DNA from: Akkermansiaceae bacterium
Lineage (GTDB): Bacteria > Verrucomicrobiota > Verrucomicrobiia > Verrucomicrobiales > Akkermansiaceae
Direction: 5' to 3'
Length of the DNA: 12,317 bases
Assembly: GCA_025457805.1 (NCBI GenBank)
Contig: JALOTR010000017.1
Location: 1-12,317, forward strand
The translations under genes were made by a program, and so were the position numbers. The notes under the pieces were generated by a model. That model saw only the letters and a list, made by a program, of their open reading frames with translations. It ran no database searches and was not told the origin of the DNA. Below, one piece after another: positions 1,145-7,440 of the stretch. Numbering within the stretch: the stretch's first letter is position 1; the number at the start of each line of letters is the position of its first letter.

Positions 1145-1732
1145 TCAAGAAGCACTCAGGAAACGCTGCCAATCTCGGATGCCGTGGAGATTGCGGATCA
1201 TCGCGGTGGCCGGCACGGCCCGCGGGGTGGCGGGCTTGCGGAGCAAACGCAGACCCGCTTCGTGGGGGAGGCGGTCGGCCTTTTTCTCATTCACCTCGCG
1301 GTGGGTGAGGACGCAGTTTTCCCACGATGATGGACCACCCCGCGAGCGGGGCACGATGTGGTCGATGTTGCCTTCGCCGGGTTTGAGTATCTTGCCGGTG
1401 TATTGGCAAACTCCACCATCGCGTTCCCAAATGCCGCGCGCACCGAAGCGAGGGCGGCAGATGGGAACTTTGGCATAGTTTGCCGCAACGATCACCGTGG
1501 GCACCCGCACCGCACCACGCGGAGTATTTACCGCATGGTCTTCGTCACGGATCGGCAGTTTCAACCAATCCTCCCATCGCACCGGAGAGATATGATCATC
1601 CCCATGCACATCCAAGCCCGTCGCGGAGCCACTCGCCATCATGCAGAAGGCCTCGGCCGGAGTCTTGGTGTGGATCGCCTGCCAGTTCCGGTTGAGGACC
1701 AGCACGGTGGTTTTGTGGAGGATGTCTTTCAT
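1145..1732 (-). CDS. HNH endonuclease
   Basis: A 195-residue protein from the ATG at 1732; the frame is open further upstream, but that part overlaps the RNA ligase and is not HNH-like. The N-terminus (TTVLVLNRNWQAI) matches a common family of stand-alone bacterial HNH proteins. The HNH core lies at about residues 109-154: CQYTGK, DH at 124-125, an Asn at 139 in WENC, and NEKKADR at 148-154. The spacing fits a beta-beta-alpha metal nuclease. It is the last gene of the minus-strand set and starts 22 nt after the RNA ligase stop, so it is probably cotranscribed. HNH proteins usually cut DNA, but the neighbours suggest a role in nucleic-acid damage. Its substrate cannot be read from sequence. 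Confidence 0.88.
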   Translation of the reverse strand: MKDILHKTTVLVLNRNWQAIHTKTPAEAFCMMASGSATGLDVHGDDHISPVRWEDWLKLPIRDEDHAVNTPRGAVRVPTVIVAANYAKVPICRPRFGARGIWERDGGVCQYTGKILKPGEGNIDHIVPRSRGGPSSWENCVLTHREVNEKKADRLPHEAGLRLLRKPATPRAVPATAMIRNLHGIRDWQRFLSAS

Positions 1733-1754: not shown

Positions 1755-2390
1755 TCAGTGGATTCCGTTGAAGTCGGAGGTTTTGAGTTTGGTAATAATT
1801 CTTGTGTTGTTCCTGGTTCGTAATTCGAGCTTGGGTCTGGCGACGATTCCCTCAGCAAGGAAATCACCCCATTGAGAGCGGATGCCTTTGCGGGTCGTTT
1901 CAACCAAATCAGCCAGAGTTCCCTCCCCGATAATCGGGACCACGCGAATGCCGAGCTTTGCGGCGATGTCCTCAACGTTGAAACGCTCCAGCCACCAATC
2001 TCCGATTTTCACATCAAACAGCACGAAATCCTGATTGGGTCCGTATTGGCCACCGTGCTTCTGGATTTTCGCACCGTAACCTTCACCATACAAACAGGCA
2101 CCTGCGGGGAAGATCTCAACAAGCTTTGAAAGTTGTGGTTCGAAGATGTGACGCAATTGTTCGATCAATGTAATCTGGATCTGGGCATTGTTGGTTCTGC
2201 CACCAAATCGGAGACGGCCTTCTTCAAGGATCACACGGATGTTAGTTCCATCGACCTTCTCAGTGAAAACCCAAGGACAGTCCTTGAGGAACTCAAATTC
2301 TGGCAATGAGTATTCCTCCATCAAAAGCGTCTTGCCCTTGTTGGTCATGTCTCGTTTGAAGACAGTTTGAATTTTATGATATTCGTTCAT
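1755..2390 (-). CDS. Rnl2-type RNA ligase
   Basis: A 211-residue ATP-dependent RNA ligase of the covalent nucleotidyltransferase superfamily, which joins 3'-OH to 5'-phosphate RNA ends. All motifs are visible: motif I at 44-50 (EKVDGTN, Lys45 the predicted adenylation site), motif III around Glu103 (LYGEGYG), IIIa at 125-126 (LFDVK), IV at 180-181 (AEGIVAR) and V at 200-203 (TKLK). It is shorter than T4 Rnl2 and lacks a recognisable C-terminal domain, as in other compact members. The start at 2390 is supported by the conserved opening EYHKIQTVFKRD, although no clear Shine-Dalgarno is present. It follows the rtcB remnant by 15 nt. With RtcB damaged, it is the only intact RNA ligase in the window. 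Confidence 0.93.
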   Translation of the reverse strand: MNEYHKIQTVFKRDMTNKGKTLLMEEYSLPEFEFLKDCPWVFTEKVDGTNIRVILEEGRLRFGGRTNNAQIQITLIEQLRHIFEPQLSKLVEIFPAGACLYGEGYGAKIQKHGGQYGPNQDFVLFDVKIGDWWLERFNVEDIAAKLGIRVVPIIGEGTLADLVETTRKGIRSQWGDFLAEGIVARPKLELRTRNNTRIITKLKTSDFNGIH

Positions 2391-2405: not shown

Positions 2406-3381
2406 CTAATCTTCCGCCTTCTCACCCGCAGGACTCATCTTAACGAGTTTGGGATCGAAGCGGCCTAACACTTCGACGAGGTCGGATTGTGCGGCCATGA
2501 CGGTGTGGATGTCTTTGAAATTCTTGTCCATCGGCCTCATCGAGCGTGAGCCATGCCAAGTGTTTGAGTTCCTTTGGCAGATTCGACCGGCGGGCCATGG
2601 CACGACGGCTGTAAACATCACAAACCTGCGCCCCGGTTCCGCGCGAACCCGAGTGGCTGAGCAGCGCGAGGTATTCGCCAGGCGGGAAACCGAGCGCATC
2701 ATCCACGACGGTGAAGGCCCCGAATTCGACGAAATGGTTTCCGCTCCCGCTGGTGCCGAGTTGTTTCCACGCCTTGTCGCGCAGGTGTTTCGTCACCGGA
2801 GAAACCGTCCAGTCATCATCCATCACATCGTGATCGCGGCGTTCCTTGAATTCCGCGCCGATACCGAAGCGGGTTTCGCTTTCGATGATGTTAGCCAAGC
2901 GGTCGCGCTGACCGGGGATGATGTTCGCTTTGCGATCATAGACGCTGAGCTTCATGCGGCACGCGATGTCAACGCCGACGGCGTAGGGAATCACGGCATT
3001 TTCGGTGGCAAGAACGCCACCAATGGGCAGACCGTAGCCGACGTGCGCATCGGGCATCAGTGCTCCGGCGACCGCGACGGGAAGTGCGCAGGCGTTGGCC
3101 ATTTGTTTGACCGCCTCCGCTTCAAGATCAGTCCCCCACTGACGCCATGGCGCAAGCTCCGCACGAGGCGTGAAGGCCGGACGATATAGGGCACGGGCCA
3201 ATGGCGCACGAAGCGCATCATCGAAGAACGCTGAAGGATCGGCGACGATGTGGAAAATGTCATTGCCCAGCACAGCGCCGTCGTTTCCGGTGGCGATGAA
3301 TTCGCGGATGAACTCGTGGGCGAGCTGCATCGCTTCTCCGCCATCGGGCACGCCGAGGTGGATGAGATCTTTGGTTTTCAT
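2406..3381 (-). pseudogene. rtcB: RtcB RNA ligase, internally deleted and frameshifted
   Basis: RtcB joins 2',3'-cyclic phosphate or 3'-phosphate to 5'-OH RNA ends using GTP and Mn. From ATG 3381 (MKTKDLIHLGVPDGGEAM) about 285 residues are normal, including DAHVGYG at 111-117, GVDIACRM at 136-143, SGNHFVEFG around 213-221 and LSHSGSRGTG at 241-250. After LAWLTLDEADGQEF the reading frame becomes nonsense and ends near 2440. A different frame then encodes the genuine C-terminus, KDIHTVMAAQSDLVEVL to the stop at 2406. The region between, which in intact RtcB carries the HGAGR segment with the guanylated histidine, is absent. The break lies near 2530-2545, where both halves encode LDEA, suggesting deletion between short direct repeats plus a one-base shift. 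Ligase activity is not expected. A sequencing or assembly collapse is the alternative. Confidence 0.85.
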
Positions 3382-3487
3382 GAAGTTGTTAGATAAGATG
3401 GATGAAGAGGGCCGGTGCTGGCAGTGGTGTTTGTTTTCAGAGGCAAATATCGAGAACGTGGTGGTCCGGAAAGGATGCCGGACATCA

Positions 3488-3514
3488 CCCCGGCGGAGAA
3501 TTTCTCCGCCGGGG
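3488..3514. repeat. Perfect GC-rich palindrome between the Ro60 gene and rtcB
   Basis: Two 13-nt arms (CCCCGGCGGAGAA and its complement) meet at a single central base, 12 nt after the Ro60 stop codon. Neither side carries a T-run, so a classical intrinsic terminator is unlikely. It may stabilise the upstream mRNA end, separate Ro60 from rtcB expression, or be a dispersed palindrome. The Ro60-rtcB gap is 145 nt, much longer than the other gaps in the operon. Confidence 0.6.
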
Positions 3515-3526
3515 CTTTGCATGGCT

Positions 3527-4963
3527 TCACAGGGGGATCGCTTCGATTTCGTGGATGAGCGCGTCCTTGTCTTCTTCGAGGAATTTCATCGTCTGCAGCG
3601 CTTTTTCGGAAAAGCCGGCGAGGCAGAAGATGTTCCTCTCGGGAAACTGGAGCGTGCCGTATCCGGCGAGGTCGAAGCTGAACACGCGGGGGTCGGAGCC
3701 CGTGCGGCGTTTCCAGTCCTCGAAGGCCGTGGTCGGCGCGTAATGGCCGATCCAGCCCTGCATGTCGGACAGGAGGATCACGCGGTCGTAGCCGGTTTTT
3801 GCCTGCTCGAAGATCGCGTGGAAGTTCGTCCCGCCTCCCGGCGCGCGACGAGCGATCTCACGAGCGAGCGTGAGAGTCGAGTCGCGGCGGTTGAGCGAAA
3901 CGAATTCGGCATCATTGCTGAAGACCATCACGTCGGCACTGGTGTTGGCCTTGGCAAGGACCGCGGCAAACAAGGAACCGATTTCAAGCGGACGGCCACT
4001 CATCGAACCCGAGCCATCGAGCGCGATCAAGGTGCGCCCATCGAAACGGGGCACGTTGGCGAGCGCCTTGTCGGCCGCATCGCTGATCGCCGCCATCGCA
4101 TCTCCCGCACGAGGCAGGCCGCTTTCGCGGACAGCCTCCAATGCGGTGAGGTAACGGAACGGAAGCACGAGCGATTTCGCGATGAGACGTTCATCCACCA
4201 ACATGGCCAACGCGGCGTCCACGCTCTGCGGTGCCTGATGCAGGATGTTGCGCAGGTTTCGAAGCAGCGCGAAGTATCCGAGCTTGCGATGTTGGATGAG
4301 TTCGTCCCATGCCTCGGCTTTGAGCGACTGAAGGTCTTCCCCCTCGTCGCGGGCTTTGGCACCGGCCTGGGTGAGCTTGGTTTCCCACGTTGCGGCGGGA
4401 GCAAGTTCACCTTGCACGAGTTTGCGCAGCGCTTCGGAGTGCGGCGGGTGGAGCAGGTTGACGGCATCCACCAGCTTGAAGTCCGAAGTTTCACGGCGGT
4501 ATTTCGCGAGTTGGTATTCGTCGAAATTCGCCAATGCCGCGCCGAGCCCCTTCTTGAGCGAATTCGGGATCGGGCGACCCACGGTGGCAAGATGGCAGGC
4601 AAGGATTTCCAACACATCGTCGGGGCGGCGGACCACGAGTTGATAGAAACGTTTCGTCCAATCCGCACCCTTCACGTGGCGGGCAAGTTCCGCCGCCACA
4701 AGGTGGGAAACGGAACGCATGCCCGCCTTGGTCCGGGCGTAGATCGCGGCCTTGGCAACGAAGGATTTGTCATCCGTTGCAGCGATGAGTTCCCTCACGC
4801 GGTTAGCAGTGGCGTTTCCCTTGCGGTAGAACGTGTCCTCAAGGGTTGCGGTCAGTAGAATCGAGACGAGTTCGCCTTTCGGTGATTGATGGAAGGCAAG
4901 GCCGCCTGCGAGGTTTGTGGTGTCGCCGTGTTTTTTGCGGGCGAGCAGTTTGCTGAATTTCAT
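3527..4963 (-). CDS. rsr: Ro60/Rsr homologue, TROVE and vWA domains
   Basis: A 478-residue bacterial Ro60. These ring-shaped HEAT-repeat proteins bind Y RNAs on their outer face and misfolded or damaged RNA ends in the central hole, and they assist exonucleases in RNA decay. The TROVE domain spans about residues 15-300 (GGLAFHQSPKGELVSILLTATLEDTFY, RSVSHLVAAELARH). The C-terminal von Willebrand A domain has a complete MIDAS: DGSGS at 316-320, Thr379 in GGGTN and Asp400 in LLSDMQG. The start is secure, with AAAGGAG six bases before ATG 4963. It is first among the protein genes of the minus-strand operon and lies directly downstream of four Y-RNA-like units, matching known rsr loci where Y RNAs adjoin the gene. 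Confidence 0.95.
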   Translation of the reverse strand: MKFSKLLARKKHGDTTNLAGGLAFHQSPKGELVSILLTATLEDTFYRKGNATANRVRELIAATDDKSFVAKAAIYARTKAGMRSVSHLVAAELARHVKGADWTKRFYQLVVRRPDDVLEILACHLATVGRPIPNSLKKGLGAALANFDEYQLAKYRRETSDFKLVDAVNLLHPPHSEALRKLVQGELAPAATWETKLTQAGAKARDEGEDLQSLKAEAWDELIQHRKLGYFALLRNLRNILHQAPQSVDAALAMLVDERLIAKSLVLPFRYLTALEAVRESGLPRAGDAMAAISDAADKALANVPRFDGRTLIALDGSGSMSGRPLEIGSLFAAVLAKANTSADVMVFSNDAEFVSLNRRDSTLTLAREIARRAPGGGTNFHAIFEQAKTGYDRVILLSDMQGWIGHYAPTTAFEDWKRRTGSDPRVFSFDLAGYGTLQFPERNIFCLAGFSEKALQTMKFLEEDKDALIHEIEAIPL

Positions 4964-5022: not shown

Positions 5023-5094
5023 CCGGGGAGAAAAATGCCTGGAGCAAATGGGATTCGATTCGCAGTCGAAGGAACTCCAGGCTCACTTCCCCGG
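5023..5094 (-). ncRNA. Y RNA-like unit D (minimal)
   Basis: A 72-nt unit with the same plan as units A-C but stripped to the minimum. The outer stem is CCGGGG/CCCCGG, an internal loop has AAGUGA on the 5' side and AUUUUUCU on the 3' side, and the inner stem is GCCUGGAG/CUCCAGGC. Inside is a single hairpin, UUCGA/UCGAA, with a seven-base loop CUGCGAA that has the form of an anticodon loop (GCG after U33). D-arm and T-arm are missing. The 3' UUUUUCUCCCCGG could also act as a weak terminator before the Ro60 gene. Probably a Ro60-binding stem with a reduced effector end; binding is inferred. Confidence 0.65.
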
Positions 5095-5104
5095 AAAGGG
5101 GATC

Positions 5105-5241
5105 GCGGAGAAAACGGACAGGCTCTAGCACGGGGTCGCCGGGAATCGAACCCGGCTCCCGCTTGCGCGGGATCCCAACTCATGGGCGATGCGAATTCCG
5201 TGCAACTGTGTTGCGCGAAGAAATCCTGTCCTCACTGCCGC
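5105..5241 (-). ncRNA. Y RNA-like unit C
   Basis: A 137-nt unit. The ends pair as GCGG/CCGC, then an internal loop (CAGUGA opposite GUUUUCU), then a perfect 7-bp stem GGACAGG/CCUGUCC. Within it is a tRNA-like domain enclosed by GCACGG/CCGUGC (5128-5203), with a short CCC/GGG hairpin, a long variable-type arm UCCCGC-GCAA-GCGGGA and a T-arm with an ordinary UUCGAUU loop. No D-arm is evident; a GCAAC/GUUGC hairpin lies on the 5' side. A tRNA-mimicking module on a Ro-binding stem is the known plan of bacterial Y RNAs (YrlA type). The assignment rests on structure and on its position beside the Ro60 gene. Confidence 0.72.
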
Positions 5242-5252
5242 AAAAGGAAATT

Positions 5253-5402
5253 GAGGAGAAAAACGGAGCGGGTTGAAGGTTGTTCGATCTTGCGATGGCG
5301 AACAACCCGTTGCCCTACCAATGGCGATTCAGGGAAGCCCCCGAAGTTGGAGTCGAACCAACAATCGTTCGTGCGACGATGAAACCCGGTCCTCACTGCC
5401 TC
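5253..5402 (-). ncRNA. Y RNA-like unit B
   Basis: A 150-nt unit. The outer stem is GAGG/CCUC, where units A and C have GCGG/CCGC, a compensatory change that supports the pairing. The internal loop is CAGUGA opposite GUUUUUCU. The inner stem is GGACCGGG/CCCGCUCC with one C-C mismatch. Inside are a 5-bp hairpin AUCGU/ACGAU, a T-arm GUUGG-UUCGACU-CCAAC with an ordinary T-loop, a D-arm-like GCC-AUUGGUA-GGGC segment and a 9-bp hairpin GGUUGUUCG/CGAACAACC. The tRNA-like parts are in an unusual order (T-arm before D-arm), as if permuted or built from two fragments. Confidence 0.68.
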
Positions 5403-5413
5403 AAAGGTGGATT

Positions 5414-5548
5414 GCGGAGAAAGTGGCTGGAGATAGGAACGCCACGGATCACTCCGTGATATTCGGCGGGAGTTGAACCCGCGACAACGGACATGAAGCC
5501 CGTGCTCTAACCAACTGAGCTACGAAGTAACTCCGGCCTCACTGCCGC
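5414..5548 (-). ncRNA. Y RNA-like unit A with a full tRNA-like domain
   Basis: A 135-nt unit. The outer stem is GCGG/CCGC, the internal loop CAGUGA/ACUUUCU, and the inner stem GGCCGGAG/CUCCAGCC with one mismatch. The interior holds a nearly complete tRNA body: a short UUCG/CGAA acceptor stub, a D-arm GCUC/GAGC whose loop AGUUGGUUA has the classic GG, an anticodon-like arm ACGGG/UCCGU with loop CUUCAUG (formally a UCA anticodon), and a T-arm GCGGG-UUCAACU-CCCGC. A hairpin AUCAC-GGA-GUGAU follows instead of a CCA end, so it cannot be charged as drawn. This is the YrlA-like architecture: a Ro-binding stem carrying a tRNA mimic. A tRNA scanner may call it a pseudo-tRNA. Confidence 0.75.
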
Positions 5549-5557
5549 AAAATGGTT

Positions 5558-5632
5558 TGGTGAACCCGCAGGGATGTGCGCCCTGCTCCGCCGGTTAAAA
5601 GCCGGCTGCTTCGCTGTCTAAGCTTCGGGTCC
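5558..5632 (-). tRNA. tRNA-Lys(TTT), altered elbow
   Basis: Acceptor GGACCCG/CGGGTTC, D-stem GCTT/AAGC with loop AGACAGCG (no GG), anticodon arm GCCGG-CTTTTAA-CCGGC, 4-nt variable loop, T-stem CAGGG/CCCTG with loop CGCACAT, A73 and encoded CCA. U33, A37 and A73 suit lysine. The T-loop has G55-C56 instead of T55-C56, and position 58 is C rather than A. Last tRNA of the array; Y RNA unit A begins 9 nt downstream. Confidence 0.85.
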
Positions 5633-5650
5633 TTTGAAAAATCGGAAAAT

Positions 5651-5743
5651 TGGCGGAACGCGGAGGACTTGCACCCCATCCCGCGGTCGGCGGGACGTAT
5701 TCCTTAGCAGGGAATCCCGGCACGCTTGGCCGGTTCGCGTTCC
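5651..5743 (-). tRNA. tRNA-Ser(GCT), altered elbow
   Basis: A class II tRNA: acceptor GGAACGC/GCGTTCC, D-stem CCGG/CCGG with loop CCAAGCGTG, anticodon arm ATTCC-CTGCTAA-GGAAT, a long variable arm TCCCGC/GCGGGA that suits serine, T-loop TGCAAGT, G73 and CCA. One T-stem pair is mismatched (T49-C65). The D-loop lacks GG. Only one base separates it from the preceding tRNA, so processing must be precise. Confidence 0.85.
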
Positions 5744-5744
5744 A

Positions 5745-5819
5745 TGGTCCCGGCGGCAGGACTTGCACCTGCACTGGACGAGGTCTGAGCTCGTTGCCTC
5801 TGCATTGGGCTACGCCGGG
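5745..5819 (-). tRNA. tRNA with Leu anticodon (CAG) but a short variable loop
   Basis: Acceptor CCCGGCG/CGCCGGG, D-arm GCC/GGC with loop CAATGCAGA, anticodon arm ACGAG-CTCAGAC-CTCGT, variable loop CCAGT (5 nt), T-arm GCAGG-TGCAAGT-CCTGC, A73 and CCA. The CAG anticodon reads the leucine codon CUG, yet bacterial tRNA-Leu has a long variable arm and this one does not. It may be an anticodon-switched tRNA of another family, so the attached amino acid is uncertain. T-loop and D-loop show the altered elbow. Confidence 0.78.
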
Positions 5820-5830
5820 ATGGTTGGACC

Positions 5831-5910
5831 ACGGAGCGCTGGCTTCAGCCGGCGTGAATTGGATGAGTCGAAATCAAGTAATGACTCGCCGGCTGAAGCC
5901 AGCGCTCCGT
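5831..5910. repeat. REP-like palindrome, copy 1
   Basis: Perfect 24-nt arms (5831-5854 and 5887-5910), beginning ACGGAGCGCTGGCTTCAGCC, around a 32-nt centre. The same arms occur at 7037-7108. It sits between tRNA-His and the CAG tRNA, making that spacer 99 nt where the others are at most 22. Likely a dispersed palindrome or MITE-like insertion. The bases GGTCCAACCA just left of it, read on the minus strand, resemble a tRNA 3' end. Confidence 0.85.
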
Positions 5911-5918
5911 TTGAAAAC

Positions 5919-5994
5919 TGGGTTGACCAACCGGAATTGCACCGGCACTGCCGCCTTCACAGGGCGGGATGCTAACTGTTACAACATGGTCAAC
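5919..5994 (-). tRNA. tRNA-His(GTG), altered elbow
   Basis: Acceptor TTGACCA/TGGTCAA, anticodon arm CCGCC-CTGTGAA-GGCGG, 4-nt variable loop, T-arm GCCGG-TGCAATT-CCGGT, C73 and CCA. The base just before the acceptor (5994) is G and can pair with C73, reproducing the G-1:C73 pair that HisRS requires; I include it as the mature 5' end. The D-stem is weak (TGT/GCA) and its loop AACAGTTA has no GG. Retention of the His-specific pair is strong evidence for a working tRNA. Confidence 0.87.
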
Positions 5995-6004
5995 ATTGGG
6001 GAAA

Positions 6005-6081
6005 TGGCGCTTCCGCGAGGACTTGCACCTCGAACCTCCGCCTTCGCACGGCGGCATGCAGATCTCTTGCACCTCGGAAGC
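6005..6081 (-). tRNA. tRNA-Arg(GCG), altered elbow
   Basis: Acceptor GCTTCCG/CGGAAGC, D-stem GTGC/GCAT with loop AAGAGATCT, anticodon arm CCGCC-GTGCGAA-GGCGG, variable loop AGGTT, T-arm CGAGG-TGCAAGT-CCTCG, G73 and CCA. The GCG anticodon reads CGC. Most bacteria read CGN through a deaminated ACG anticodon, so genomic GCG is itself unusual. The elbow is altered at G55 and by loss of the D-loop GG. Confidence 0.84.
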
Positions 6082-6090
6082 TTGAAACAT

Positions 6091-6165
6091 TGGCACTCCA
6101 TGCCGGTGCTGCCCCGGCTGCTGCGGCGTGAAAGGCCGCTATGTTAGCTGATACACTAATGGAGT
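6091..6165 (-). tRNA. tRNA-Glu(TTC), altered elbow
   Basis: Acceptor ACTCCAT/ATGGAGT, D-stem GTGT/ACAT with loop ATCAGCTA, anticodon arm GCGGC-CTTTCAC-GCCGC, variable loop AGCA, T-arm GCCGG-GGCAGCA-CCGGC, G73 and CCA. The T-loop GGCAGCA is identical to that of tRNA-Pro in this array and departs from consensus at positions 54, 55 and 58. Confidence 0.85.
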
Positions 6166-6174
6166 TGATGAAAT

Positions 6175-6297
6175 TGGTGGCTGTGTCCGGACTGCCAACC
6201 CTACTTCGCGGAGCGCACTTCGCAGGTCGCGTAGCGACAATCGCGCCGGACTCTTCCCGGCTTCAACGGGACGCTGATCTGTCTCAGCTACACAGCC
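6175..6297 (-). tRNA. tRNA-Phe(GAA) with a 48-nt insertion in the T-loop
   Basis: Acceptor GGCTGTG/CACAGCC, D-stem GCTG/CAGC with loop AGACAGAT, anticodon arm TCCCG-TTGAAGC-CGGGA, T-stem TCCGG/CCGGA, A73 and CCA are all intact. The T-loop is 55 nt (6191-6245) instead of 7. Removing 48 nt (about 6193-6240) restores CGCGAGT, which fits the G55-C56 type of the array. The insert carries a GTCGC-TAC-GCGAC hairpin and two ACTTCGC repeats on the plus strand, so it looks like a small repeat element. Either a disrupted gene or a tRNA with an intervening sequence. Confidence 0.8.
6193..6240. repeat. Small palindromic insert in tRNA-Phe
   Basis: A 48-nt segment with a GTCGC/GCGAC hairpin and a doubled ACTTCGC motif, located exactly within the T-loop. 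Its exclusion yields a standard-size loop. Its boundaries are uncertain by one or two bases. The composition resembles dispersed bacterial palindromes; I cannot see another copy in this window. Confidence 0.6.
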
Positions 6298-6319
6298 ATG
6301 GTTGATCTTGTTGGAAAAT

Positions 6320-6408
6320 TGGCGGAGCGCCAGGGATTCGAACCCCGGACACCATTGCTAGGTGCAACTGTTTTCAAGACAGCGCCCTCGACCGACCGGA
6401 CGCGCTCC
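6320..6408 (-). tRNA. tRNA-Ser(TGA), canonical elbow
   Basis: Acceptor GGAGCGC/GCGCTCC, D-loop retaining GG (GTCGGTCGA), anticodon arm GCTGT-CTTGAAA-ACAGT, long variable arm GCACC/GGTGT, T-arm CGGGG-TTCGAAT-CCCTG, G73 and CCA. One of only two tRNAs in the array with ordinary TTCGA and GG loops, so it serves as an internal control for the altered ones. Confidence 0.92.
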
Positions 6409-6420
6409 TTTGTTGGAAAA

Positions 6421-6494
6421 TGGCTCCCGGACCAGGACTCGCACCTGGACGACCCGGTTAACAGCCGGGCATGCTGCTTTGACATCATCCGGAA
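6421..6494 (-). tRNA. tRNA-Asn(GTT), altered elbow
   Basis: Acceptor TTCCGGA/TCCGGGA with one G-U pair, D-stem ATGT/GCAT with loop CAAAGCA, anticodon arm CCCGG-CTGTTAA-CCGGG, variable loop TCGT, T-arm CCAGG-TGCGAGT-CCTGG, G73 and CCA. G73 and the GTT anticodon suit AsnRS. The D-loop has AG where GG is expected and the T-loop has G55. Only three bases separate it from the preceding tRNA-Ile. Confidence 0.87.
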
Positions 6495-6497
6495 AGA

Positions 6498-6571
6498 TGG
6501 TCCCTCCGCGCGGTTTCGCGCCGCGTTCTTCCATTTATCAAACGGATGCTCTGCTATTGAGCTACGGAGGA
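6498..6571 (-). tRNA. tRNA-Ile(GAT), altered elbow
   Basis: Acceptor TCCTCCG/CGGAGGG, D-arm GCTC-AATAGCA-GAGC, anticodon arm TCCGT-TTGATAA-ATGGA, variable loop AGAA, T-arm CGCGG-CGCGAAA-CCGCG, A73 and CCA. The D-stem and bases 8-9 (TA) are textbook, which makes the missing GG in the seven-base D-loop stand out. G55-C56 is present. Confidence 0.87.
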
Positions 6572-6585
6572 TGGTTGTTGGAAAA

Positions 6586-6661
6586 TGGTCGCGCGCCCCG
6601 GTGCTGCCCCGGGTGCCTCCTCGCTCCAAACGAGGCGGGTTTGCTGACTCCCTCGCGCGCG
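6586..6661 (-). tRNA. tRNA-Pro(TGG), altered elbow
   Basis: Acceptor CGCGCGC/GCGCGCG with C1:G72 and A73, the identity signature of bacterial tRNA-Pro. D-stem GGG/CCC with loop AGTCAGCAAA, anticodon arm CCTCG-TTTGGAG-CGAGG, variable loop AGGCA, T-arm CCCGG-GGCAGCA-CCGGG, CCA encoded. Position 37 is A where G is usual in tRNA-Pro, which would remove the m1G37 site. Its T-loop is identical to that of tRNA-Glu. Confidence 0.85.
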
Positions 6662-6677
6662 ATGTTGATGTTGAAAA

Positions 6678-6754
6678 TGGCGGCCTGTGCGGGCATTGCT
6701 CCCGCGACCTTCCGCCTGACAAGCGGTTGCTCTTCGTGGCTGAGCTAACAGACC
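6678..6754 (-). tRNA. tRNA-Asp(GTC), altered elbow
   Basis: Acceptor GGTCTGT/ACAGGCC, D-stem GCTC/GAGC with loop AGCCACGAA, anticodon arm with loop TTGTCAG and one A-A mismatch at the outer pair, variable loop AGGTC, T-arm GCGGG-AGCAATG-CCCGC, G73 and CCA. T-loop G55-C56 is present. The D-loop lacks GG but is the one case where an AG at positions 18-19 cannot be aligned clearly. Confidence 0.84.
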
Positions 6755-6765
6755 GTGTGATGAAA

Positions 6766-6855
6766 TGGTGGGTTGTGTCGGTAACGCTCCGACGCTGGTC
6801 CGGACAGGACAGCTGCTTTACAGGCAGCTCACGATCTTTACGTGACTAACAACCC
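6766..6855 (-). tRNA. tRNA-Tyr(GTA), altered elbow
   Basis: A class II tRNA with acceptor GGGTTGT/ACAACCC, a 5-bp D-stem TCACG/CGTGA with loop TAAAGAT, anticodon arm GCTGC-CTGTAAA-GCAGC, variable arm GTCC/GGAC, T-arm GTCGG-AGCGTTA-CCGAC, A73 and CCA. The long variable arm is the bacterial mark of tRNA-Tyr. The 54-58 pair reads A and T, an inversion of the usual T54-A58. Confidence 0.86.
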
Positions 6856-6861
6856 GAAGAA

Positions 6862-6936
6862 TGGTGGACCGCCCCGGCTTTGCACCGGGCTCTTCCGCGT
6901 GCGAGGCGGGTGACCTGCTGAATGATCGAGCGGCCC
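6862..6936 (-). tRNA. tRNA-Ala(CGC), altered elbow
   Basis: Acceptor GGGCCGC/GCGGTCC contains G3:U70, the decisive identity pair for AlaRS, with A73 and CCA. D-stem GATC/GGTC with loop ATTCAGCA, anticodon loop CTCGCAC, variable loop AGAG, T-arm CCCGG-TGCAAAG-CCGGG. The outer anticodon-stem pair is C-A mismatched. CGC is a less common Ala anticodon that reads GCG, a frequent codon in this GC-rich window. Confidence 0.87.
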
Positions 6937-6946
6937 ATTGGAAAAT

Positions 6947-7021
6947 TGGAGGCGGAGGCCGGATTCGAACCGGCGGTACGCGGCGTATGAGACCGCTGCC
7001 TTACCACTTGGCTACTCCGCG
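6947..7021 (-). tRNA. tRNA with CAT anticodon (Met-like), canonical elbow
   Basis: D-arm AGCC/GGCA with loop AAGTGGTAA (GG kept), anticodon arm GCGGT-CTCATAC-GCCGC, T-arm GCCGG-TTCGAAT-CCGGC and CCA. The acceptor is CGCGGAG/CTCCGCC, with a C1-C72 mismatch and T at position 73. A 1-72 mismatch recalls initiator tRNA, but the three G-C pairs of the initiator anticodon stem are absent and T73 is unusual for Met. It could be elongator Met, an Ile(CAU) type, or something specialised. Confidence 0.82.
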
Positions 7022-7036
7022 ATTGTGGAAAATGGG

Positions 7037-7108
7037 TGAACGGAGCGCTGGCTTCAGCCGGCGAGTGTGAAATGATGGACTCGCCGGCTGAAGCCAGCGC
7101 TCCGTTCA
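7037..7108. repeat. REP-like palindrome, copy 2
   Basis: Perfect 30-nt arms (7037-7066 and 7079-7108) around a 12-nt loop. The inner 24 nt match both arms of copy 1 at 5831-5910. It lies at the 5' edge of the recognisable tRNA array, before tRNA-Met. The hairpin would be very stable in the transcript and could hinder or pace transcription. Confidence 0.87.
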
Positions 7109-7440
7109 TAAATAATGAAAACAAACACCACTGCCAGTCCGGTGAAGGACTCGCACCCGCAGGAGATTTCTCGGCGGATCTTTCGGTGTTTCAGGCACAC
7201 CTCCCGTGGCAGTTAGATATAACTTCCAAGCCTCTGGTTTGTGATAACTCACCAGGACGCGGGAATCGGGCAATGCAGGTCCTTGAGCCAGTCATGATGA
7301 CATGACTCACTTGACAGTGGACTCGTGGATTGCAACCGTCATTGCGGTTGCTCACCCAGAGTCCGTCTCTCGCGGGACGATGCTGGATTGGCGGCCGATC
7401 ATGGCCCCGTCATCAGTTGCAGCTGATGGCGGGGTTCTTG
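7109..7440 (-). other. Structured stretch upstream of the array with degenerate tRNA-like pieces
   Basis: No convincing protein gene. On the minus strand I see a hairpin with an 11-bp stem (7405-7434, one mismatch), a clover-like fragment closed by GGACTC/GAGTCC with inner GCAACCG/CGGTTGC (7319-7364), a perfect AGTCATG/CATGACT hairpin near 7290-7307, and an 82-nt segment closed by CTGCCA/TGGCAG (7131-7212). The last contains GGTGCGAGTCC, the same altered T-loop as tRNA-Asn, and an arm GGTGT/ACACC with loop GCCTGAA. These may be decayed tRNAs or a folded leader RNA for the array. Confidence 0.45.

Follow-up and report, generated by a model that had tools for sequence, protein, structure and literature searches.

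Thirteen of the fifteen tRNA genes in an array carried by an Akkermansiaceae bacterium have a second form of the tRNA elbow, in which the T-loop and the D-loop are changed together. We propose that the array is an extra, chargeable backup set of tRNAs written in this second elbow code and predicted to be passed over by enzymes that recognise the ordinary elbow, a reading to which we give a probability of roughly 0.45. The array lies on contig JALOTR010000017.1 (assembly GCA_025457805.1), analysed as one stretch of 12,317 nucleotides (the window), and the host metagenome-assembled genome (MAG) is 59% complete. What the sequences document directly is the paired change, its conservation, compensation at the 19-56 pair, the charging signals, the anticodon loops and a neighbourhood of Ro60, Y-RNA-like units, RtcB and HNH. 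A wider version of the proposal is held more tentatively: Verrucomicrobiota may possess a second, nearly complete, orthogonal and translation-grade tRNA set (A18-G55, with 19-56 paired) beside an RNA-damage locus, used when ordinary tRNAs are destroyed and hidden from readers of the universal elbow. A search of the open-access literature found no description of such elbow-recoded tRNAs.

In the canonical elbow G18 contacts pseudouridine 55 and G19 pairs with C56, and these contacts are among the most conserved features of tRNA. We used a scanner of our own that relies on stem pairing and the encoded CCA and ignores the loop letters; at the score used it gave no match in 592,938 strand-bases of shuffled sequence. 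On the minus strand it recovered 14 members of the array, of which 12 are recoded and two have TTC; a phenylalanine tRNA was added by eye. ARAGORN reports 10 tRNAs in the window. The array and its members, found by this structure-only scan unless stated otherwise, are:

5558..7021, minus strand: the array, 15 tRNAs (13 recoded, 2 canonical); ARAGORN, scan, and Phe by eye
6947..7021, minus strand: canonical elbow, anticodon CAT; ARAGORN and scan
6862..6936, minus strand: recoded, anticodon CGC (Ala), T-loop TGCAAAG, G3:U70 kept (read from the stems)
6766..6855, minus strand: recoded, anticodon GTA (Tyr), T-loop AGCGTTA
6678..6754, minus strand: recoded, anticodon GTC (Asp), T-loop AGCAATG, without AG at 18-19
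6586..6661, minus strand: recoded, anticodon TGG (Pro), T-loop GGCAGCA
6498..6571, minus strand: recoded, anticodon GAT (Ile), T-loop CGCGAAA
6421..6494, minus strand: recoded, anticodon GTT (Asn), T-loop TGCGAGT
6320..6408, minus strand: canonical elbow, anticodon TGA (Ser); ARAGORN and scan
6175..6297, minus strand: recoded, anticodon GAA (Phe), T-loop starting CGCGATT; read by eye
6091..6165, minus strand: recoded, anticodon TTC (Glu), T-loop GGCAGCA
6005..6081, minus strand: recoded, anticodon GCG (Arg), T-loop TGCAAGT
5919..5993, minus strand: recoded, anticodon GTG (His), T-loop TGCAATT
5745..5819, minus strand: recoded, anticodon CAG (Leu), T-loop TGCAAGT, short variable loop, without AG at 18-19
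5651..5743, minus strand: recoded, anticodon GCT (Ser), T-loop TGCAAGT, long variable arm
5558..5632, minus strand: recoded, anticodon TTT (Lys), T-loop CGCACAT

An earlier note, made by eye on this DNA, had described G55, C56 and a purine at 57 in thirteen of the fifteen tRNAs and the loss of G18-G19 from the D-loops of the same thirteen. Both descriptions were recovered when the loop letters were left free: the T-loop pattern is present in the 12 scanned tRNAs and in Phe, and GG is found in none of these 13 and in both TTC tRNAs (CAT and Ser-TGA). AG can indeed be placed at 18-19, in 11 of the 13 rather than in the twelve first counted, the misfits being Asp (AGCCACGAA) and Leu (CAATGCAGA). 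U54 is missing in 7 of the 13. The Phe gene carries about 47 extra, palindrome-rich bases between the start of the T-loop and the 3′ side of the T-stem. An inverted repeat whose arms are identical (GGAGCGCTGGCTTCAGCCGGCG) occurs twice, inside the array (5831-5911) and before it (7040-7106), and a possible tRNA remnant containing a TGCGAGT stretch lies upstream on the minus strand at about 7115-7213. The "SeC" tRNA that ARAGORN calls at 5458-5529 was assigned to a Y-RNA-like unit and is not a member of the array.

The rule behind the recoded elbow was examined in 913 distinct tRNAs scoring at least 18. The register is fixed in the 224 of them whose D-loop has 7 bases; the counts made on these, and on the 8-base loops below, ignore kinship, and distinct sequences may be close kin. 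T55 goes with G18 in 45 of 45 such tRNAs and G55 with A18 in 167 of 176, while positions 19 and 56 form a Watson-Crick pair in 219 of 224 (in 5 of 8 when 56 is not C). With either of two registers allowed, the 8-base D-loops obey the full rule in 177 of 190 cases (best of 1000 shuffles, 124), and in 13 of 23 when 56 is not C (best shuffle, 6); eight of the remaining ten have U19-A56, yet G18 opposite G55. Since C19-G56, A19-U56 and U19-A56 all occur, the 19-56 pair is, on this comparative evidence, under selection in the array tRNAs. Positions 54 and 58 also covary in the recoded tRNAs. The claims that the two loops change as a pair, and that G19-C56 persists as the 18-55 contact becomes A-G, thus extend well beyond the window. 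So does the claim that random decay would not produce the pattern: because 19-56 pairing survives through compensatory changes and 54 covaries with 58, decay of the array family is strongly argued against by these comparisons.

The ordinary tRNAs of the host do not share the array loops, a possibility that the earlier note had set out as a check. All 20 that were read among 25 model matches outside the contig are canonical, including Ala-CGC, Asp-GTC, His-GTG and Lys-TTT. In a relative with an array and a genome in one contig (G056), T55-C56 occurs with GG in 53 of 54 ordinary readings, some neighbouring genes being counted twice, and the lone exception is a low-scoring Pro with T55-C56 and no GG. 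Recent copying from host tRNAs was considered and rejected: in G056 the best canonical stem match is of the same isotype for 76 of 335 recoded tRNAs (20.1 expected), at 40-79% identity, and for this reason the recoded set is taken to be old or foreign.

The second check, whether homologous arrays might lack the paired change, gave an answer that depends on the phylum. Matches of some kind to the window Ro60 occur in 114 of 189 genomes of the order, and close homologues (53-66% identity, some partial) at 28 other loci. We fetched 29 related stretches, one of them holding a distant Ro60 paralogue (L080) as a control, and counted tRNAs up to 9.5 kb upstream of Ro60 and on its strand in 30 stretches including the window. 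There are 395 in 28 of the 30 (343 G55-C56, 32 T55-C56 and 20 other); the two stretches without upstream tRNAs are the paralogue and L077, which has hardly any upstream sequence. In these related Verrucomicrobiota arrays, the D-loop GG is present in 20 of 343 G55-C56 tRNAs vs 32 of 32 T55-C56 tRNAs. A wider survey drew on the top 80 loci from named genomes and the top 80 from viral contigs, of which 55 and 80 were scanned; the other 25 genome loci were presumed, without individual checks, to be fragments or repeats of genomes already fetched. Wherever a scanned Verrucomicrobiota locus has an array, the array is recoded, including those in Opitutaceae and in the isolate Chthoniobacter flavus (L109), which with Brevifollis gellanilyticus (L108) represents the cultured carriers in the collections searched. 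The arrays found in other phyla do not carry the change: the elbow is canonical in Ro60-linked arrays of Saprospiraceae, Acidobacteriota, a SAR202 MAG and several viral contigs. The Ro60 tree has 66 rows, all with arrays (loci lacking one were excluded, and the canonical label of several rows was taken from ARAGORN counts plus the scan); on it the recoded label, borne by 40 rows, needs 2 changes vs a shuffled mean of 20.8; rows L109 and L080 have extreme branches, probably from misread frames, and were not relied on.

One viral contig (L163) mixes elbows within a single array, where AG occurs with GC, GG with TC, GA with TT and GG with CC. This is a pattern as an arms race would leave it, and we count it in favour of the backup set. 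A class A RNase P RNA lies within the same array (L163, 6111-6379), and GOLLD RNA lies between recoded-array tRNAs at two of 25 loci scanned (L054, 7889-8318; L057, 10589-11012). Origin from a known phage was rejected: among phage records LR745206 has the closest Ro60 (51.6%), and the 25 kb of it that were fetched contain no tRNAs.

The recoded tRNAs look fit for charging and decoding. The window tRNAs have cloverleaf stems, an encoded CCA and identity elements, as functional tRNA genes do. Among 559 G55-C56 tRNAs, drawn from at most 41 loci of Verrucomicrobiota, G3:U70 is present in 20 of 21 Ala tRNAs vs 4 of 538 of other isotypes, and the discriminator agrees with the E. coli set in 456 (best of 1000 shuffles, 267). 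In the anticodon loop, T33 is present in 480 and position 37 is a purine in 552. The four largest arrays examined for coverage (L114, L116, L321 and L322, 36-37 tRNAs each) serve all 20 amino acids; by a simple wobble count, which does not filter misreading wobble and may run a few too high, they read 52-55 of the 61 sense codons. Another array (L056), with 27 tRNAs, also reaches 20 amino acids. A role outside normal translation, suggested in the earlier note, is less likely, because the anticodon loops and most charging signals resemble those of working tRNAs.

On the minus strand the array is followed by four Y-RNA-like units (5552-5028) and then by Ro60/TROVE, RtcB, an Rnl2-like RNA ligase and HNH:

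5411-5552, 5258-5399, 5100-5240 and 5028-5098, minus strand: four Y-RNA-like units in tandem, three with a canonical T-arm; function predicted
3527..4963, minus strand: Ro60/TROVE protein (Pfam TROVE and vWA_Ro60)
2440..3522, minus strand: RtcB RNA ligase, frame interrupted toward the 3′ end (Pfam RtcB, first 233 of 426 profile positions)
1755..2390, minus strand: Rnl2-like RNA ligase, with a relative in 0 of 28 related stretches
1145..1720, minus strand: HNH protein

A part resembling the RtcB C-terminus lies in a different frame, so that the interrupted region spans 2406-3522 (minus strand). The RtcA cyclase and the RtcR activator are absent among the seven window proteins tested and were not sought farther away. 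In the 28 related stretches, some of them cut by contig ends, HNH follows in 25, a close RtcB in 9 and the RNA ligase in none. The host genome has a second, distant Ro60 (31% identity; G000:C465:2848-4308). At the far end of the window, similar palindromes (1-38 and 1082-1125) flank a gene at 91-1068 whose product is DUF533-like, below the curated cut-off.

Y-RNA-like units are found upstream of Ro60 in most Verrucomicrobiota loci. Units that begin with GCAGTGAG and end near TTTCTCC number 103 in 44 stretches, vs one in an equal amount of shuffled sequence, and 62 of the 103 have a canonical T-arm, as do three of the four in the window. Modules with a T-arm, a closed acceptor and a D-arm in permuted order number 48 in 42 stretches, vs 9 in five-fold shuffled sequence, and most of these permuted tRNA-like modules carry TTC loops near Ro60. 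No Rfam family matched the predicted units of the window. A bacterial Y RNA has been reported to superpose on tRNA in circularly permuted form (excerpt of PMC11472068). One and the same locus therefore keeps canonical elbows in its likely Y RNAs and recoded elbows in its tRNAs.

If the array is a backup set, its tRNAs would be expressed conditionally, trimmed by RNase P and charged by the host synthetases, and they would enter the ribosome when an attacker cuts or alters the ordinary tRNAs. Their protection would come from A18-G55, unrecognised by the attacker or by a U55-requiring modifier such as TruB. Handling the broken ordinary tRNAs would fall to Ro60 with its Y RNAs, together with RtcB and the RNA ligase. 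Trimming by RNase P may be expected since the exposed 19-56 pair, on which the enzyme is described to stack (PMC4810234, in part), is intact. Phages are reported to counter attacks on translation with tRNAs and RNA ligases that they bring along (PMC7824862, in part), and phage tRNAs are proposed to escape host tRNases through changes in the anticodon loop (PMC10264068, in part). Evasion of an elbow-reading enzyme is the weakest step, because no such attacker was found here.

Several observations weigh against this proposal, the first being that no elbow-reading nuclease, which the earlier note had proposed these tRNAs may evade, or other attacker was found in this analysis. Coverage in the window stops at 13 amino acids by scan, or 14 with Phe, and many arrays are incomplete, some down to 1-5 recoded tRNAs. 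Some identity elements depart from expectation: A73 is found in 33 of 41 Gly tRNAs, U73 in most Thr tRNAs and G-1:C73 in 10 of 23 His tRNAs. Leu-anticodon tRNAs have a short variable loop in 39 of 40, which ordinary bacterial tRNA-Leu does not have, and from their sequences charging by LeuRS is uncertain. Most CAT tRNAs, judged by eye, are without initiator features. A sigma-54 site upstream of the arrays was found at none of 25 loci, and sigma-54 control was rejected. At 6 of 22 further Verrucomicrobiota Ro60 loci, two with less than 2.1 kb upstream, the scanner sees no array. Conversely, 13 further stretches include 12 with recoded tRNAs, of which 11 have no Ro60 within the stretch fetched; nine of those 11 have HNH. 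Ro60 as an obligatory partner was thus rejected, and so was HNH, since recoded tRNAs occur at 3 of 14 further close HNH homologues (11 have none) and at 0 of 6 distant copies. A model census placed 174 of 383 genomes at threshold, but its hits under about 66 bits include canonical tRNAs, and it was therefore not relied on for counting; strong hits were followed along with two weaker ones, of which G227 has an array and G292 is canonical. Finally, the specialised tRNA-Gly of Staphylococcus carries G at 55, the same place that is altered here. That tRNA is reported to be little used by translation (PMC4810233, in part).

Four other explanations were weighed. The array tRNAs could be sacrificial decoys or sensors, presenting tRNA-cutting toxins with normal anticodon loops but barred from translation by the altered elbow, their fragments perhaps signalling damage. 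The preserved anticodon loops and adjoining RNA-repair genes agree with this, as does the Salmonella RNA repair operon, which is reported to be activated by tRNA halves (PMC7790460, in part), but bait for an anticodon nuclease needs neither G3:U70 nor matched discriminators, an encoded CCA or nearly all codons, and we regard decoys as unlikely. Decidedly unlikely is a supply of non-ribosomal amino-acid donors, charged, poorly bound by EF-Tu owing to the elbow change and used by transferases. The cell-wall tRNA-Gly of Staphylococcus, specialised and poorly used in translation, offers a described precedent (PMC4810233, in part), but one transferase would call for a single isotype, whereas the window has 13 by scan and the large arrays of relatives cover all 20 amino acids, and a transferase is absent among the window proteins tested. 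We give still less credence to the array RNAs as Ro60/Y-RNA ligands, marked by the altered elbow for Ro60 and an exonuclease partner or shielded from them: Ro60 and the Y-RNA-like units do sit between array and ligases in many loci, and the tRNA-like domain of Y RNA is reported to bind PNPase (PMC8394870, in part), but the 11 recoded arrays without Ro60 speak against it. That the arrays are decaying remnants of a horizontally acquired one is hardly credible, for all the low tRNA-model scores, the Phe insertion, the broken RtcB frame and the arrays shrunken in some genomes, given compensatory 19-56 changes in place of the uncompensated broken pairing that marks pseudogenes, the 54-58 covariation, intact stems, retained identity elements and phylum-wide persistence, although decay of this one window copy is possible.

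The backup set has partial counterparts among known systems, each of which was available to us as excerpts of its report. The Salmonella rsr-yrlBA-rtcBA operon (PMC7790460) likewise brings together Ro60, Y-RNA-like units and RtcB; the window shows no RtcA or RtcR and adds the large recoded-elbow array, HNH and the Rnl2-like ligase. The tRNA array units of mycobacteria, phages and plasmids (PMC5966550) are also dense, redundant sets for many or all amino acids with HNH endonucleases nearby, but the excerpt mentions neither loop recoding nor Ro60 nor RtcB, and its criterion of at least 20 clustered tRNA genes is above the 15 of the window, where several relatives have 27-37. Phage tRNase-evading tRNAs (PMC10264068) are similarly extra tRNAs proposed to replace attacked ones, yet they change the anticodon loop, whereas here it is the elbow, in bacterial chromosomes. 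The Staphylococcus peptidoglycan tRNA-Gly (PMC4810233) is charged and reportedly little used in translation, but it is one isotype for one pathway, unlike this array with its many isotypes and paired A18. Bacterial Y RNA YrlA (PMC8394870, PMC11472068) and the units at 5028-5552 have in common a tRNA-like module that is permuted and has a canonical elbow. Y RNAs mimic tRNA, whereas each member of the array is a complete tRNA with its parts in the usual order.

Entire tRNA sets have adopted a different elbow, and have done so with near-strict pairing, which indicates that the elbow can be recoded without loss of the 19-56 pair. The recoded arrays offer a natural test of the molecules that read G18-U55, among them EF-Tu, RNase P, the L1 stalk, TruB and toxins. 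If the array is indeed a backup, some bacteria would keep a reserve set of tRNAs for times when translation is attacked, and the arms race would involve more of the tRNA than its anticodon loop.

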